IMG/VR virus record: IMGVR_UViG_3300031705_000037 | Location: 1-27,462 of that record | DNA from: a virus | Strand: one strand, 5' to 3' | Length of the DNA: 27,462 nt | Shown here: positions 21,784 through 27,462 of the stretch, piece by piece | Position numbering within the stretch: the stretch's first letter is position 1 | How the letters are laid out: each line of letters starts with the position of its first letter | The notes under the pieces: model-generated | What the model was told of the DNA's origin: nothing | Seen by the model: only the letters and a program-made list of their open reading frames with translations | Database searches by the model: none | Program-made: the position numbers and the translations under genes

Positions 21784-22590
21784 TTAGTTTAATCCTGAAA
21801 TTTCAGCTTCAATGCTCATTAATTTATCAACGAAAGGCTGAACGTCAGACCACTTGATTTCCTTAGCATCGAATCTCTTACGTGCATCCGCAAAATCACT
21901 CTCAGCCTTTGCAAAATCCGCTTGTAACTTCTTAACATCTTTAACATCATCCTGTGCTTCTTCGTCGGCATCGTCTAGTTGTCCTTCTAAATTGATAAGC
22001 CTAGCTTCTAAATCAACAGTAGCTGAGGCCAATGGATGTACTTCCGACCACTTGATTTCCTTAGCATCAAACTTCTTTCTAGCTTCTGTAAAATCGTTTT
22101 CAGCCTTCTCTAATTCCTTTTCAACCTTCTTGATTTCAGCCTTTATTTTGTCATCGTCCTTTGCCGTAGCTTCTTCTCCATCAAATGCAGGAGCGATTGA
22201 CGTATCGAATGTTGTCTTTGCTTTCTTAGCGGCAGATGCAACATCGTTTAGTATGTGCTTTAGTTTATCATTGTCTGATATCTTCTGTGTCTCCTTCTTA
22301 AATGCTCCCTTCATTGAGTTCCATTTATCAGCTGATTTAGACTTACTGTCATCATCAAGATCATCCCATTGATCAGCTATTGCAATGGCAAATTTAACAG
22401 CCTTTGACGCTGAGGATTTACCTCCGTCGCCAATTGCCCATTTTACCATTTTCATAGAGGGCTTAAAGTCTCCCTTGCTTGCTTCGTTAATTTTATCTAT
22501 GTTAACATATTCACCATCTAATATAGATTCTATTAGTAAATTGTTTTTTATAGACAACGTGTACTCTTCGTATAGTTTTGTTCTTTTCAT
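21784..22590 (-). CDS. tagged, Lys/Asp-rich coiled-coil protein with tandem duplication
   Basis: 268 aa. Leader MKRTKLYEEY; INE followed by Ala (34-37) is a candidate prohead-protease site. Residues 37-140 are highly charged with many Lys/Asp/Ser/Ala (DDLDDDSKSKSADKWNSMKG). The C-terminal 108 residues contain two copies of a unit centred on FTEARKKFDAKEIKWSEV / FADARKRFDAKEIKWSDV (residues about 161-204 and 227-268) in a coiled-coil setting. The composition recalls scaffold-core or internal head proteins. Function not known. It is in the operon with the genes at 23605 and 21772, with 4 and 11 base gaps. Confidence 0.7.
   Translation of the reverse strand: MKRTKLYEEYTLSIKNNLLIESILDGEYVNIDKINEASKGDFKPSMKMVKWAIGDGGKSSASKAVKFAIAIADQWDDLDDDSKSKSADKWNSMKGAFKKETQKISDNDKLKHILNDVASAAKKAKTTFDTSIAPAFDGEEATAKDDDKIKAEIKKVEKELEKAENDFTEARKKFDAKEIKWSEVHPLASATVDLEARLINLEGQLDDADEEAQDDVKDVKKLQADFAKAESDFADARKRFDAKEIKWSDVQPFVDKLMSIEAEISGLN
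21787..21912 (-). repeat. intragenic repeat unit, copy 2
   Basis: Codes for residues 227-268 of the 268 aa protein. Bases 21848-21870 are identical (23 of 23) to 22046-22068 in copy 1, indicating a fairly recent tandem duplication or selection on the FDAKEIKWS core. Confidence 0.75.
21979..22110 (-). repeat. intragenic repeat unit, copy 1
   Basis: Codes for residues 161-204. It shares KFDAKEIKWS and flanking coiled-coil pattern with copy 2; a 22-residue acidic linker separates them. Confidence 0.75.
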
Positions 22591-22594
22591 AATA

Positions 22595-23605
22595 TTATGC
22601 GTATGTTAATCCTTTAATTTGATTGATTTTATCGATAATTTTCTTTGCGTATTGTTTAACCTCTTTGTCATAGTATGAGTTACCATACCCTGCTTCAGTC
22701 TCTTTCTTTGCATTATCAGTGTATTCAACGTATCTTGAAAAATCATCTAATATACTCTTCATATGGTATGATGCATCCGATAATTTAACGTCACGTTTGT
22801 TTGTAGATACTCCGATCATAATGTCACCATATTTTGTCTTCGCACCTTTCTTAATACCATCTTTGATTTGTAATGTCAAATCGTCAATTGCATCAAATAC
22901 TAATTTGTCAATCGGCATCTTAGCTGCTCTGTTCGCAATGATGTCCGAGTATCTTCTCTTGTTATCTGCTTTGAAATCTTTATCAGATTTATATGCGATT
23001 GCTCCAGTCTTTGCTTCCTTTCTAGCGTCAATAATATCAGCTGAAGAATATCTTGCCTTTAATACATCTAAGTCTAATACATATGCGCGATCTGCAAGTA
23101 ATGCAACCTTTTTCATACTAGATATACCAGTACCGTATGTTCCACTTGCTGGAGATTTAGCATATCCTGCAGAATCATCTCTCTTACTCTTTGACAATGT
23201 TAATCCACCCTTTTTCTTACCAGGATATAATGCCCAATTTGATGTCCATGTTACATTCATCCAATCATTGTTACCGTCGGTTATTGCCAATAATGTATTG
23301 GCTGGAATTGTTTTAGAATTCTCGTCCTCTGTGTATTCATTTTGCTTTTCGTTAGTAGTAAAGTAAAGGTACACTGCGTTTGCTCTTCTCTCTCTGTTTG
23401 CCAAGCTAGGAGACATTTCAATGATGTCTTCATCTTCAATCTTATCTAACTTCAATTTCGTCATTCTATAGAATGCCTTTGGTAAACCCTCTGGAATTGC
23501 ACCAGCCCCTGTGAAGATACTTGCAAGTTTTGCACTTTTAAATGCTTCATTTAATGAAGGGAATCTAGTTTCAATGTATTCCTCGAATAATTTAATGTGT
23601 TTCAT
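22595..23605 (-). CDS. hypothetical protein with capsid-targeting-like leader
   Basis: 336 aa. Leader MKHIKLFEEYIETRFPSLNE followed by Ala21: LNE at 18-20 is a good L-x-E protease site. The body is unrecognised: VYLYFTTNEKQNEY, PANTLLAITDGNNDWMNVTW, then GISSMKKVALLADRAYVLDL and a Lys/Arg-rich helical part. The mixed alpha/beta layout with an N-terminal leader could fit an injected enzyme (T4 packages the ADP-ribosyltransferase Alt this way), but I do not see a clear R-S-ExE signature and do not assign one. It lies between the 299 aa and 268 aa genes in the same operon. Confidence 0.7.
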   Translation of the reverse strand: MKHIKLFEEYIETRFPSLNEAFKSAKLASIFTGAGAIPEGLPKAFYRMTKLKLDKIEDEDIIEMSPSLANRERRANAVYLYFTTNEKQNEYTEDENSKTIPANTLLAITDGNNDWMNVTWTSNWALYPGKKKGGLTLSKSKRDDSAGYAKSPASGTYGTGISSMKKVALLADRAYVLDLDVLKARYSSADIIDARKEAKTGAIAYKSDKDFKADNKRRYSDIIANRAAKMPIDKLVFDAIDDLTLQIKDGIKKGAKTKYGDIMIGVSTNKRDVKLSDASYHMKSILDDFSRYVEYTDNAKKETEAGYGNSYYDKEVKQYAKKIIDKINQIKGLTYA

Positions 23606-23627: not shown

Positions 23628-24527
23628 TTATATATTTGCGTTTAAAAACGATCCAAATGATTCATGAACGAATGTAACTGCTTCATCTAGATCTAATGTC
23701 CATGCAAATTCAACGTATTCAATAGCATCCTTCTCTGATACTTTCCATTTGTTCGCTGTTTTTAATACTATTTCTCGTGTTATATCCTTATTTTTATATT
23801 TCGATATATCTTTGTCAAAACCACCAGGCACCCATGTTTCTGGATTCTTCATTGTTTTTTCATTGATCGTTATTCCCCTTAAGATCCTGTTACCAAATCC
23901 TGATAATGAGATTCCATCCTCAGATACATTGAACATGCTTGAATTGCGTTTCATCCATCTCTTAGAATCGCTAGACATCTCCTTTAATATTGCGTCGAAT
24001 TCCAACTGAGAAATCTTCCCATCCTTTATCGCTTCTAACATTTTATTTCTGATTCGTGCAGATTTACCAACAGTTGACGCTGGGTGGTTTTCAGTATATT
24101 TTCGTTTTGTCGTTATGTTACGTCCTTCGATAACTACAGATTCATAAGTCTTACGTAAATACTTTAGTATCTCCTTGGCTAGGTTAGGATTGTCGTTATC
24201 TATTGCAAAGTCGTATATTTCATAACCTTCTTTCTCGGATTTACCCTTTAGCATTTTTTGAACATATTGTGTTGAATATTCATTAACGGTTTCATTCGAC
24301 TCTAATGTCATTGCAATAGAGTCCTTATATATTGATTTTGCCCATTTTATAGAATCTGCATTTTTTTTAACCTTATCACCAAACTCCTTGAAGAATTTTT
24401 TAATAAAAGAATCCTCGTCATCCGATTCTTCTGCTAATTCGTATATGTCAGACATACCACCTTCTATTAGTAATATGCTCTCTTCAATCGATCTGTCATC
24501 GTTGATATATTTATTAAATGTTGTCAT
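23628..24527 (-). CDS. hypothetical helical protein of the tagged operon
   Basis: 299 aa. N-terminus MTTFNKYINDDRSIEESILL, then LIE followed by Gly23: a weaker version of the leader with a candidate L-x-E site at 20-22. The body is mostly helical and charged. A conserved-looking segment, HPASTVGKSARIRNKMLEAI plus DGKISQLEFDAILKEMS and RWMKRNSSMFNVSEDGISLS, hints at a compact folded domain. The C-terminus VTFVHESFGSFLNANI resembles the leader motif again. Not recognised. Its start is nine bases after the stop of the ligase/NMNAT fusion. Confidence 0.65.
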   Translation of the reverse strand: MTTFNKYINDDRSIEESILLIEGGMSDIYELAEESDDEDSFIKKFFKEFGDKVKKNADSIKWAKSIYKDSIAMTLESNETVNEYSTQYVQKMLKGKSEKEGYEIYDFAIDNDNPNLAKEILKYLRKTYESVVIEGRNITTKRKYTENHPASTVGKSARIRNKMLEAIKDGKISQLEFDAILKEMSSDSKRWMKRNSSMFNVSEDGISLSGFGNRILRGITINEKTMKNPETWVPGGFDKDISKYKNKDITREIVLKTANKWKVSEKDAIEYVEFAWTLDLDEAVTFVHESFGSFLNANI

Positions 24528-24536
24528 GTTTTATTA

Positions 24537-26408
24537 TTATTGTTTATTGATAAATTGTTCGAACGTCATTACTACTTCTTCGTGTTCAGTAGCAACTCCC
24601 ATTGCATCTTCGATCTTTGTTCTTAATTCACTATACATTGGGTGTATTGCCTTAGGCGTCATCAATTGGTATTCCTTTTCGTTGTTGTCTAGCATTGCAT
24701 TTCTAACCTTCGTTGCTGATATGTTGTCGTCAGTTCTTGGTATTTCAAATAATCCGAAATCTGCTCTAGCGTTTAATTGATCTCGGTATGAATCGTTGTT
24801 GACTTGAAACCCATATGATTTCATTCTGTCGCTCCCTGTTCCCCATAATACTGGTTCATATTTTGGACGCATTTCATTAAACATCGTATCAATTGCTCCG
24901 GTTGGTATAACAAATATCTCCTTCAGAAAAGGATACTGCTTCTTAACCTTGTTGAACATATCGATCTGTGTCTTTTCGTCGTATGGTTTTTTAAATTCAT
25001 CACCCTTCTTTTTCTTCTTCGCCTTAACTAGAAATACTACCACCGGAAATCCGTTCTCCTTGTGAATAGTTTCCAATACCTTAGCATGTCCCAGTGTAAA
25101 TGGCTGAAATCTTCCGACAAACATATTAACGGGTTGTTTTCCCTGTTCGTTATATTTTACAGTAAGTGCTTCGTTTAGATCTATTGTTGTTTTTACCTTA
25201 TTATGTAGCATAAAATTTTTGTAATTATGAATTGCATTCTCGTCTGTATTTTCCACGAATATTTTATCAGATATAGATTTAACCACGTCGTTCATTCTGT
25301 TCATAGTATCTTTGTCGATCAGATCGGTCTCCTTGTTTCTCTCCTTTTTAAAAGAACCTAGTATCATTTTGAATAATTCGGCTAGTACTTCATTTGAAAC
25401 ATATTTTAATGTTCTCTCATTCTTAATATATTTGGTATTTAACTTAAAAGATTCTGCTGATGCGAATTCAGCACTTTCAAAATTAACTCCAATATATTTT
25501 GAAGAATGTTTATCAATATATCCATTGAATACTATTGACATTAATTCCAAATATCTATGGTTTGGACTTTCCTCCTCTAGTTTAATATCACTGATTTTCT
25601 CCTGCATGATATATTCTAAGAAATCTGTAACTGCTATTTGATATGTATGACTTGATTCCTTCGAATCAACATCGTATTTTCCCCTATTGAAATCCTCGAG
25701 CTTAAATGACCTAGCTGATTTTCCATCAACGAAGTTTAATATTAAACCATCAATTTCGGTTGTAAGATCTGGATTTAGGATTGAAGATATTAGTGTAGGA
25801 TTGAATAATTTAAATATCTTCGTTGTGAAACTCATCTTGTCGCTCGACACCGTTGAATATTCATATGCATTGGCAAATTCCTTATCATTCATTTCTAGTA
25901 ATTCTAGCAATTCATCACGTTGTTCCTTTGAAAGATATCCGTCAAAAATAATACTAGCAGGCTGTACTTCAAGGGCCTTTGCCCATTTGTTCAGTATAAC
26001 TGGATCATTTATTGTCTTTTTAATCTTGCCACTATTGTTCACTTGGTGAATATGCGTAAGAATCAAGTTGCCCATCGGTGTACTTTCATATTCGATCCTA
26101 GATGCCTTTATCTCTGGTAAATATTCAAAACCGAATTTCCAATCGTTCGGTATTGAATTCTTAACGTCGTTTGGTAGACTTTGTAAATGGTTTATTGCCA
26201 TTTCATATAATGATATGATAGTTCTATCTACCAGATTTAACCTTTCGGAATTAGAAGACTTATAGAATTCAAATCCATCGTCTTTCCTTGTAAAAAGAAA
26301 TGATGGTGCAGCTATTTTCTCAGTAACCAGTACTCTGTTCTTTAACATACTAATGAAGTTCTCTCTATTAGCTTTGTTAAAATGATCTCTTAATTTTTGT
26401 AACGCCAT
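24537..26408 (-). CDS. RNA-ligase-like and NMN-adenylyltransferase-like fusion protein
   Basis: 623 aa. The N-terminal part resembles the Rnl2-type covalent nucleotidyltransferase fold: motif I VTEKIAAPSF with K31 as candidate nucleophile (T4 Rnl2 has EKIHGTNF), motif III FGFEYLP (about 92-98), motif IV EIDGLILNF (about 218-226) and motif V SFKLED (about 234-239). The C-terminal part, from about residue 425, is a (H/T)xGH nucleotidyltransferase of NadM/NadR type: MFVGRFQPFTLGHAKVL, then WGTGSDR and ISATKVR. The first would adenylylate itself and seal RNA or transfer AMP; the second would make NAD from NMN and ATP. A helical linker of about 180 residues joins them. The C-terminus MTFEQFINKQ resembles the leader motif of the downstream genes. 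Domain calls are by motif; substrates are unknown. Confidence 0.72.
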   Translation of the reverse strand: MALQKLRDHFNKANRENFISMLKNRVLVTEKIAAPSFLFTRKDDGFEFYKSSNSERLNLVDRTIISLYEMAINHLQSLPNDVKNSIPNDWKFGFEYLPEIKASRIEYESTPMGNLILTHIHQVNNSGKIKKTINDPVILNKWAKALEVQPASIIFDGYLSKEQRDELLELLEMNDKEFANAYEYSTVSSDKMSFTTKIFKLFNPTLISSILNPDLTTEIDGLILNFVDGKSARSFKLEDFNRGKYDVDSKESSHTYQIAVTDFLEYIMQEKISDIKLEEESPNHRYLELMSIVFNGYIDKHSSKYIGVNFESAEFASAESFKLNTKYIKNERTLKYVSNEVLAELFKMILGSFKKERNKETDLIDKDTMNRMNDVVKSISDKIFVENTDENAIHNYKNFMLHNKVKTTIDLNEALTVKYNEQGKQPVNMFVGRFQPFTLGHAKVLETIHKENGFPVVVFLVKAKKKKKGDEFKKPYDEKTQIDMFNKVKKQYPFLKEIFVIPTGAIDTMFNEMRPKYEPVLWGTGSDRMKSYGFQVNNDSYRDQLNARADFGLFEIPRTDDNISATKVRNAMLDNNEKEYQLMTPKAIHPMYSELRTKIEDAMGVATEHEEVVMTFEQFINKQ

Positions 26409-26457: not shown

Positions 26458-26478
26458 AAGAAACATAGTACGTTTCTT
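26458..26478 (-). terminator. weak candidate terminator hairpin
   Basis: Seven-base stem AAGAAAC/GTTTCTT with a 7-base loop, about 20 bases after the stop at 26498, followed by a T-poor tail. The stem is AT-rich, so termination would be partial at best. Confidence 0.4.
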
Positions 26479-26497
26479 GATTTATTTATCTTAATTT

Positions 26498-27028
26498 TTA
26501 TAACGATTCATTTAGCGATTCGATATCCCATTGTATTCTCTGTAATGGATCATCTCCTTTAAATTGTTTCGATATCCATGCAATAAGTCCAGGCTCGTTC
26601 TTTGCATTTTGCGATAGATCGCTTGCGTTTTCCGTTCCTCCATTTGATACATTAGTACGTAACCATTTAGTATACTTTGTTTGATTCCACTTTACCTTCT
26701 TAACAGTCTTGTCATGTGGTCCATTTCCTAATTCAGAAATTGCGGCAGCATATGATCCTGGTAAAAATACACCAGTATATTCCTCATCTGCATTACCAAA
26801 ACTAATTTCCTTTCTGAATTTTATTAGTGCAGTATCTGCTACTTTGACTTGGCCAGAAACAGTACGTTCCCCTGCGTCACTGCCATATTTTATTTTTAAT
26901 GATAGGGCATCGTCTGTATCTGTTGCAAAATGCAAATCATACATACCTGATTTTTTATATTGTCCTATGTCTGTTTTTTCATTGATAAACTCGTTTACGA
27001 ATGATTCAAATGTAGTTTGTATTCTCAT
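26498..27028 (-). CDS. hypothetical protein with capsid-targeting-like leader
   Basis: 176 aa. N-terminus MRIQTTFESFVNEFINEK: two overlapping leader cores, with VNE (11-13) and INE (15-17) as candidate protease sites. The body is beta-rich (YDLHFATDTDDALSLKIKYG, then VSGQVKVADTALIKF) followed by Trp-containing helices (KYTKWLRTNVSN). Not recognised. The bases before its ATG, GATAAATAAATC, are shared with the region after its own stop (26481-26492), which may reflect a repeated leader. It is followed by a weak hairpin and a promoter-like gap. Confidence 0.7.
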   Translation of the reverse strand: MRIQTTFESFVNEFINEKTDIGQYKKSGMYDLHFATDTDDALSLKIKYGSDAGERTVSGQVKVADTALIKFRKEISFGNADEEYTGVFLPGSYAAAISELGNGPHDKTVKKVKWNQTKYTKWLRTNVSNGGTENASDLSQNAKNEPGLIAWISKQFKGDDPLQRIQWDIESLNESL

Positions 27029-27046
27029 GATTTATTTATCTTAATT

Positions 27047-27462
27047 TTATCTAGCGTATTTAATAACTCCCATTAATTGATTAATTGCAGCGTATGTTCC
27101 AGTAAGTTTCATTGTTTTACCTTTGTAAATAAATACAACTCCTTCTGTTGGGATTATTGATTCAATTCCTCCGATTCTGTCAAGTCTTTCTAATTCTGAC
27201 ATTACCTTATCTATTTGTGCAAGGTTATCTCCCTTCTTAACATCTTCGGCCGCTTGCTTAATTTGCTTATGTAATCGTTGCATTTCAGTTGCAGGGTTTG
27301 CTGCTATAAAATCGCTAGCATTTTTAAGAATAACGCTTCCTAATTCTAAGAATAAATCTTCAAATGGTCTAATGTTTTCTTTTTGTTTCTTTTTAACATC
27401 TTCTTTATCAAACTTCTTGATTACAGATGCTTTGTCTTTTCCAAGTTCTTTATCAAGAGCTC
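27047..27462 (-). CDS. 3' part of a ligase-fold-like protein, cut by the window edge
   Basis: The frame is open to the window end, giving at least 138 residues; the ATG at 27283 is internal, not the start. Lys-rich helices (DKEDVKKKQKENIRPFEDLF, then IKQAAEDVKKGDNLAQID) precede a C-terminal block, IPTEGVVFIYKGKTMKLTG, ending TYAAINQLMGVIKYAR. EGVVF and KLTG have the look of motifs IV and V of covalent nucleotidyltransferases (ligases), and I recall similar tails in T4-like marine phages. The N-terminal part with the nucleophile lysine would be outside the window, so the function is open. Confidence 0.55.
   Translation of the reverse strand, partial: ALDKELGKDKASVIKKFDKEDVKKKQKENIRPFEDLFLELGSVILKNASDFIAANPATEMQRLHKQIKQAAEDVKKGDNLAQIDKVMSELERLDRIGGIESIIPTEGVVFIYKGKTMKLTGTYAAINQLMGVIKYAR

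Follow-up and report, generated by a model that had tools for sequence, protein, structure and literature searches.

A T4-like phage protein joining an Rnl2-type ligase fold to an NMNAT-type nucleotidyltransferase, and its possible packaging with a second ligase-fold protein

Results

A fusion gene among leader-tagged neighbors

The window, by which we mean the whole stretch of 27,462 nucleotides analyzed here, is a virus record from a T4-like phage: the portal protein (phrog_213) and a DNA polymerase (phrog_2062) were confirmed by profile, and gp46/47-, UvsX-, NrdA/B- and gp45-like ORFs were assigned by sequence reading only. Gene A is a single ORF of 623 aa with an ATG start on the minus strand, running from 26408 to 24537, and the plus strand across 24537–26408 is stop-rich throughout. 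From the N-terminus its product is predicted to consist of an Rnl2-like covalent nucleotidyltransferase (ligase) fold (residues 1–245; 25674–26408), a helical domain (residues 246–385; 25254–25673), a HIGH-superfamily nucleotidyltransferase (residues 424–603; 24600–25139) and a capsid-targeting-like C-terminal tail (24540–24569), all on the minus strand. The preliminary description of this DNA had placed ligase-type and nucleotidyltransferase motif sets on one chain, and we found the ORF to be real and every motif quoted to be present in it: EKIAAPSF, which includes K31, FGFEYLP, EIDGLILNF, SFKLED, GRFQPFTLGH and ISATKVR. An identical copy of A lies on a second contig, L004, which continues the locus upstream, and relatives occur in more than 300 IMG/VR stretches, the majority of those listed being full length; the fusion is therefore no assembly artefact. 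Clustering these relatives near 75% identity gave 65 representatives, 39 with both domains and 26 ligase-only proteins from huge phages.

Several neighbors of A on the minus strand begin with short leaders. Directly upstream on the same strand lies gene B, whose C-terminal part occupies 27047–27462 and whose full 428 aa are encoded at L004:4076-5362, with a 176-aa ORF carrying a CTS-like leader (MRIQTTFESFVNEF; 26498–27028) in between. Downstream of A are ORFs of 299 aa (leader MTTFNKYIND; 23628–24527), 336 aa (leader MKHIKLFEEYIET; 22595–23605) and 268 aa (leader MKRTKLYEEYT; 21784–22590). A had been taken for the head of this operon, which is incorrect: B, the tagged 176-aa ORF and, in L004, a 661-aa ORF that likewise has an F-containing leader all come first.

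The N-terminal half of A has a ligase fold with an atypical active site

Profile searches found no Pfam or PHROG family for the ligase-like half of A, and a sequence search of the N-terminal half against solved structures gave no match, fold comparison alone providing one. With the AlphaFold2 model (mean pLDDT 87.9; built on 65 relatives, loci of the phage collection being left out), Foldseek placed adenylated T4 Rnl2 first (2hvq at rank 1, E 2.1e-7; 2hvr_B at rank 2); fungal tRNA ligase and Naegleria, archaeal and T4 Rnl1 ligases are among the matches with E values of 0.001 or below. A ligase fold is thus predicted for this part, as had been proposed. The window protein gave no match to Pfam RNA_ligase, its best relative reaching 18.2 bits against a gathering score of 27; one relative (L182) matched PF09414 over residues 23–174 (E 0.0028).

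A has the overall fold of T4 Rnl2 (PF09414, RNA_ligase) and the Naegleria RNA ligase, and its sequence runs, as expected of such enzymes, from the Glu-Lys of motif I through motif III and an acidic residue in motif IV to a lysine in motif V. It differs from T4 Rnl2 and PF09414 in its score below the Pfam gathering threshold, in motif I, where the glycine of KxxG is replaced by A34 (Gly in 34 and Ala in 31 of the 65 representatives), in motif IV, where D220 stands instead of Glu, and in motif V, where the sequence S-F-K-L-E offers a lone lysine, K236 (25701–25703), rather than the two of KxK. It further departs from T4 Rnl2 in being fused to a nucleotidyltransferase and in having huge-phage relatives that have lost the lysines. 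These deviations in motifs I, IV and V make ligase activity of A uncertain.

The candidate AMP-accepting lysine in motif I (EKIAAP) is K31 (26316–26318), and in our alignment the preceding E30 is invariant (65/65). Position 31 itself varies (K in 35 representatives, D in 25, M in 2, N in 2 and E in 1) and splits by clade. Conservation of K31, on which the preliminary description had staked its ligase call, was borne out in two-domain members, 35 of 39 of which keep it (the other four have M or N), and failed in the huge-phage ligase-only relatives, where position 31 is D or E in 26/26. Position 236 follows the same division, being K in 37/39 two-domain representatives and E, Q or A in all 26 of the others. 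The window clade therefore looks constrained at both lysines: two-domain members mostly retain them at an overall identity of only about 50–70%, which suggests catalytic constraint. From these residue patterns we consider ligase activity plausible for A, and not general across the family since K31 and K236 are lost together in the huge-phage relatives; for A itself, we put an active ligase site at about even odds. We considered the nearby K36 as a migrated catalytic lysine in huge phages and rejected it as unconserved (K in 20/65). Two two-domain relatives (L202:6001-9369 and L171:6001-9303) are about 1100 aa long, with some 500 extra C-terminal residues and Met in place of K31.

The strongest rival reading makes the ligase fold of A a pseudo-ligase that binds nucleic acid or the capsid and carries the nucleotidyltransferase; in huge phages it would act alone in head assembly, and any sealing would be left to B. 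The concerted loss of both lysines in huge phages fits this proposal, as do the M or N substitutions of K31 in four two-domain representatives, the N at this position in the close relative L031, and the Ala in motif I of the window protein while B retains every catalytic residue. The helical domain points the same way: between clades it is conserved at least as well as the ligase core (shared conserved positions 13.8% versus 12.8% and 7.8%), which would suit a retained binding function. Huge-phage relatives have neither the nucleotidyltransferase nor the C-terminal tail, and the one in L149 has gp23-like and prohead-protease-like genes next to it. Such a context is suggestive only, gp23-like genes being nearby in just 13/80 loci and the protease in one. 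Against a pseudo-ligase stands the retention of K31 and K236 in divergent two-domain members, and we regard this alternative as unlikely for A, if the best of those considered.

The nucleotidyltransferase domain resembles archaeal NMNAT and carries its own conserved residues

Pfam CTP_transf_like matches residues 429–570 of A (3.8e-8) and PHROG phrog_3041 matches as well (4.8e-18), both collections seeing the C-terminal part only. The nearest structural relatives are archaeal NMNATs: VIA-align superposed residues 426–603 on 1f9a with Z 15.7 and an rmsd of 2.5 over 156 residues. With the ligase fold above, AlphaFold2, Foldseek and VIA-align thus back the earlier call of an RNA-ligase fold joined to an NMNAT-type fold, and we hold this modeled anatomy with high confidence. 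A shares with archaeal NMNAT/NadM (1f9a, 1ej2, 2qjo) the fold, the GRFQPF start motif and the ISxTxxR end motif, so that both the (H/T)xGH and ISxTxxR signatures are found. The nucleotide-binding motif is TLGH (residues 438–441; 25086–25097), and the catalytic residues of the domain are nearly fixed among the 39 two-domain representatives (T438 and H441 in 39/39, S564 and R569 in 37/39, R433 within the range of 37–39/39).

The differences from archaeal NMNAT/NadM bear on the substrate. A has T for the first H of HxGH and no Nudix domain, and the FNSIW segment of MJ0541 aligns with FNEMR of A, so that the Trp position is taken by R514 (38/39). We take the Trp of the archaeal enzyme to be the residue that stacks on nicotinamide/NMN. 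The NCBIfam NMNAT equivalog models gave A just 26–27 bits against cut-offs of 181–409 (27.3 versus 181.2 for TIGR01527). R514 and these sub-cut-off scores make NMN no more than a candidate substrate.

One reading is that the domain makes something other than NAD, joining a nucleotide to a nucleic-acid 5′ end, to pantetheine or sugar phosphate, or to a DNA-modification precursor. Besides the low equivalog scores, it is favored by Foldseek, which orders phosphopantetheine adenylyltransferases (PPATs) above NMNATs for A, by the (T)xGH form, as in PPAT, and by a conserved set, FNxxRPxYEPxLWGxGxDR, that differs from the NMNAT signature. VIA-align disagrees, its best 12 rows all being archaeal NMNAT or NadM and PPAT reaching Z of about 14, and every substrate-specific NCBIfam match of A is a nicotinamide or nicotinate nucleotide enzyme. 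On balance we judge a non-NAD product to have about one chance in four, and NAD formation by A falls slightly short of an even bet. The contigs of L046, L048, L050 and L055 (G003–G006) show that several fusion-bearing phages carry a second small CTP_transf_like gene (frames of 158–193 aa).

Gene B encodes a second RNA-ligase fold

B has no Pfam family in profile searches. Its AlphaFold2 model (pLDDT 86.5, leader disordered) gave best 50 Foldseek rows that are nearly all RNA or DNA ligases, none reaching E 0.001, and a best VIA-align Z of 9.8, to the Naegleria RNA ligase. The KxDG, EG and K motifs are intact, E68-K69-x-D71-G72, R88-N89, E150, E397-G398 and K409 being kept in 28/28 sequences, and from this conservation an active ligase site in B appears probable. 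A profile comparison of A with B was not significant (E 0.055, probability 1), and we therefore claim no close kinship between them. Weak Pfam DNA_ligase_aden matches (3/28 members, best E 0.0016) also led us to entertain that B might be a ligase dependent on NAD, with the nucleotidyltransferase recycling the NMN that it releases; we dropped this idea because RNA ligases lead the fold comparison and no NAD-dependent ligase is among the rows listed.

The two genes travel together. B relatives were found in 158 of the 252 loci examined, 156 of them with A, and in about 115 less than 50 bp separates the genes. A functional link between A and B is very probable.

Ligase-like and nucleotidyltransferase parts are paired in other phages

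Time and again, the partner of the CTP_transf-type domain is a protein that has a ligase fold or resembles a ligase, and three families of such partners were seen. In Microcystis phage Mel-JY01 the domain directly precedes B on one chain, and in LR756508 one chain holds a ParB-like domain, then a CTP_transf-type domain and then B. In cyanophage S-PM2 the CTP_transf-type domain is fused to DUF6267 (PF19782 match 1.6e-111), a third ligase-like family in which we read KWDG and EGFV motifs, and in S-SZBM1 a DUF6267-type and a CTP_transf-type protein are encoded by adjacent genes, the former recognized by eye because it closely resembles the S-PM2 protein. Finding two parts on distinct genes in one phage and on a single chain in the next is classical evidence of shared function, and the fused S-PM2 and split S-SZBM1 arrangements indicate as much for these two.

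The cyanophage proteins (S-PM2d138, and S-SZBM1_141/_140 as the split form) resemble A in that a CTP_transf-type domain is linked to a ligase-like part or encoded next to it, and a bearer of this domain has been detected in virions. They differ in the N-terminal domain, which in A belongs to another family (PF19782 gave no match to the window protein), and in the TFxxF C-terminal tail, which is not seen in the cyanophage proteins. The general architecture of a ligase-like part with a CTP_transf-type domain is thus already in databases in the form of DUF6267 cyanophage proteins.

Tags on A, B and their neighbors suggest head packaging

The capsid targeting sequence (CTS) of T4 has 10 residues, of which those at positions 4 and 7 direct targeting and those at 8 and 10 processing; an Asp at position 10 stops cleavage and not packaging (PMC9026906). 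B and the neighboring ORFs resemble the T4 internal proteins (IPI-III, Alt) in having a short [FY]xx[FY][ILV] leader with a Glu two residues on; B leaders such as MKLLTYNQFIVER or MKFLKSYEEFLNE stand at the N-terminus and contain the prohead-protease glutamate site. In A the corresponding motif is at the other end, within its last 10 residues (MTFEQFINKQ; tails of the family are of the (I/L/M)MTFEQFINK type), and no such glutamate site follows it. A targeting tag at the C-terminus is unusual. C-terminal propeptides are found in T4 Alt and gp21 (PMC9026906), and A differs from Alt in carrying the motif at its extreme C-terminus without the cleavage glutamate.

The motif [FY]xx[FY][ILVM]x?[ED] occurs in 24.1% of 1000 ORF N-termini in these loci, compared with 1.1% of equal-sized internal windows, figures that are partly post hoc given that the motif was picked, and the tail recognized, with the leaders already in view. 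The N-terminal targeting-type motif is present in 79/87 B proteins. Its C-terminal form is present in 80/98 A proteins, with TFxxF in many of the remaining ones, and over all ORFs in 80/1000, roughly the contribution of A itself. Purified virions of S-SZBM1 yielded a cytidylyltransferase, by only 2 peptides (PMC9146016), and those of S-CREM2 yielded one as well, although its authors did not exclude contamination and caution that virion preparations may pick up enzymes that are abundant (PMC10665884). The S-SZBM1 protein starts with MRFRQFIIEA, a leader of the type seen in B. By analogy with these systems, head packaging is somewhat more probable than its absence.

Discussion

Our preferred reading, to which we give a probability of roughly 55%, is that A and B form a head-packaged, injected ligase/nucleotidyltransferase pair of a T4-like phage. 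A would be a bifunctional protein, probably head-packed, in which a helical domain separates an Rnl2-type ligase fold from an NMNAT-type nucleotidyltransferase and a C-terminal peptide could dock the chain to the prohead core. Its partner would be the adjacent B, which combines an RNA-ligase fold and an intact predicted active site with an N-terminal capsid-targeting leader that is presumably cleaved off. The two proteins would enter the prohead during assembly and leave the head together with the DNA, and in the first few minutes after entry they would work on the ends of nucleic acids and on adenylated nucleotides: B, and perhaps A, would repair RNA or tRNA, and the nucleotidyltransferase domain of A would make NAD or a related dinucleotide. 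That RNA repair and NAD synthesis are coupled in one role is doubtful. A bolder version holds that the head carries B and A as a ready-made kit that enters with the DNA and mends host RNA or replenishes NAD ahead of all phage gene expression, that this kit evolved three or more times, each time from another ligase-fold family, and that A reaches the head through a form of the CTS which lies at the C-terminus and is not cleaved; we offer it tentatively, as having somewhat under one chance in three.

The role proposed in the preliminary description would instead make A an unpackaged intracellular enzyme that regenerates NAD and repairs cleaved RNA in response to NAD-depleting or tRNA-cutting defence. 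The folds agree with it, an NMNAT-type fold being the closest match on one side and nick-sealing RNA ligases the nearest relatives on the other, and A shares with phage NAD salvage (NadV with NadM/NadR) a HIGH-superfamily NMNAT-type nucleotidyltransferase. However, A lacks the Nudix or kinase fusion of those systems, and NadV was found in only 2, and canonical RNA_ligase genes elsewhere in 4, of 12 large contigs (139–234 kb; possibly incomplete). The conserved R514 at the NMN-stacking position, the conserved capsid-targeting-like tail of A and its tagged neighbors also argue against this idea, which we consider improbable. Still less likely, and by far, is that A and B make or join NAD-capped or adenylylated RNA, for example in RNAylation priming or phage transcript capping: both folds handle AMP and two ligase folds are linked with a nucleotidyltransferase, but no ADP-ribosyltransferase was identified beside A and no direct evidence was found.

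Our analysis goes beyond the preliminary description through the clade split of K31 and K236, the partner B, the C-terminal tail and the recurring pairing. Our literature search found no description of a ligase-NMNAT fusion or of DUF6267, nor of the N-terminal family of A, family B, the C-terminal tag or the three-fold recurrence, an absence that is no proof. The 'cytidyltransferase' annotations of marine T4-like phages stand without tested function, and two of the three ligase-side families (the N-terminal domain of A, and B) are without a Pfam family. If packaging is true, these proteins would provide a concrete, testable system of pre-emptive counter-defence, in which a widespread group of phages injects enzymes that repair RNA or restore NAD.

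Other features of the window

Within the window we found no enrichment of the T4 late-promoter sequence TATAAATA and no Rfam RNA or tRNA, and the stretch that separates the 176-aa ORF from A forms only modest hairpins (z -1.85). A 17-bp perfect repeat, TTAAGATAAATAAATCA, lies just past the stops of the 176-aa ORF and of B (26478–26494 and 27028–27044, minus strand); an equal number of matches at up to 3 mismatches arose in 6/100 shuffles. Within the tagged cluster, a 133-aa ORF (21772–21371, minus strand) has a leader-like FLAEA segment about 50 residues in and not at its N-terminus. Far from this cluster, amid replication genes, two adjacent ORFs (14415–13876 and 13863–13315, minus strand) share the leader MKHVKLFEAFV. 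The DNA polymerase gp43 is apparently split on the minus strand into halves of 465 aa (18833–17436) and 398 aa (12435–11239), of which phrog_2062 confirms the first only; they lie about 5 kb apart, with nrdB-like, nrdA-like and two leader-tagged genes between them.
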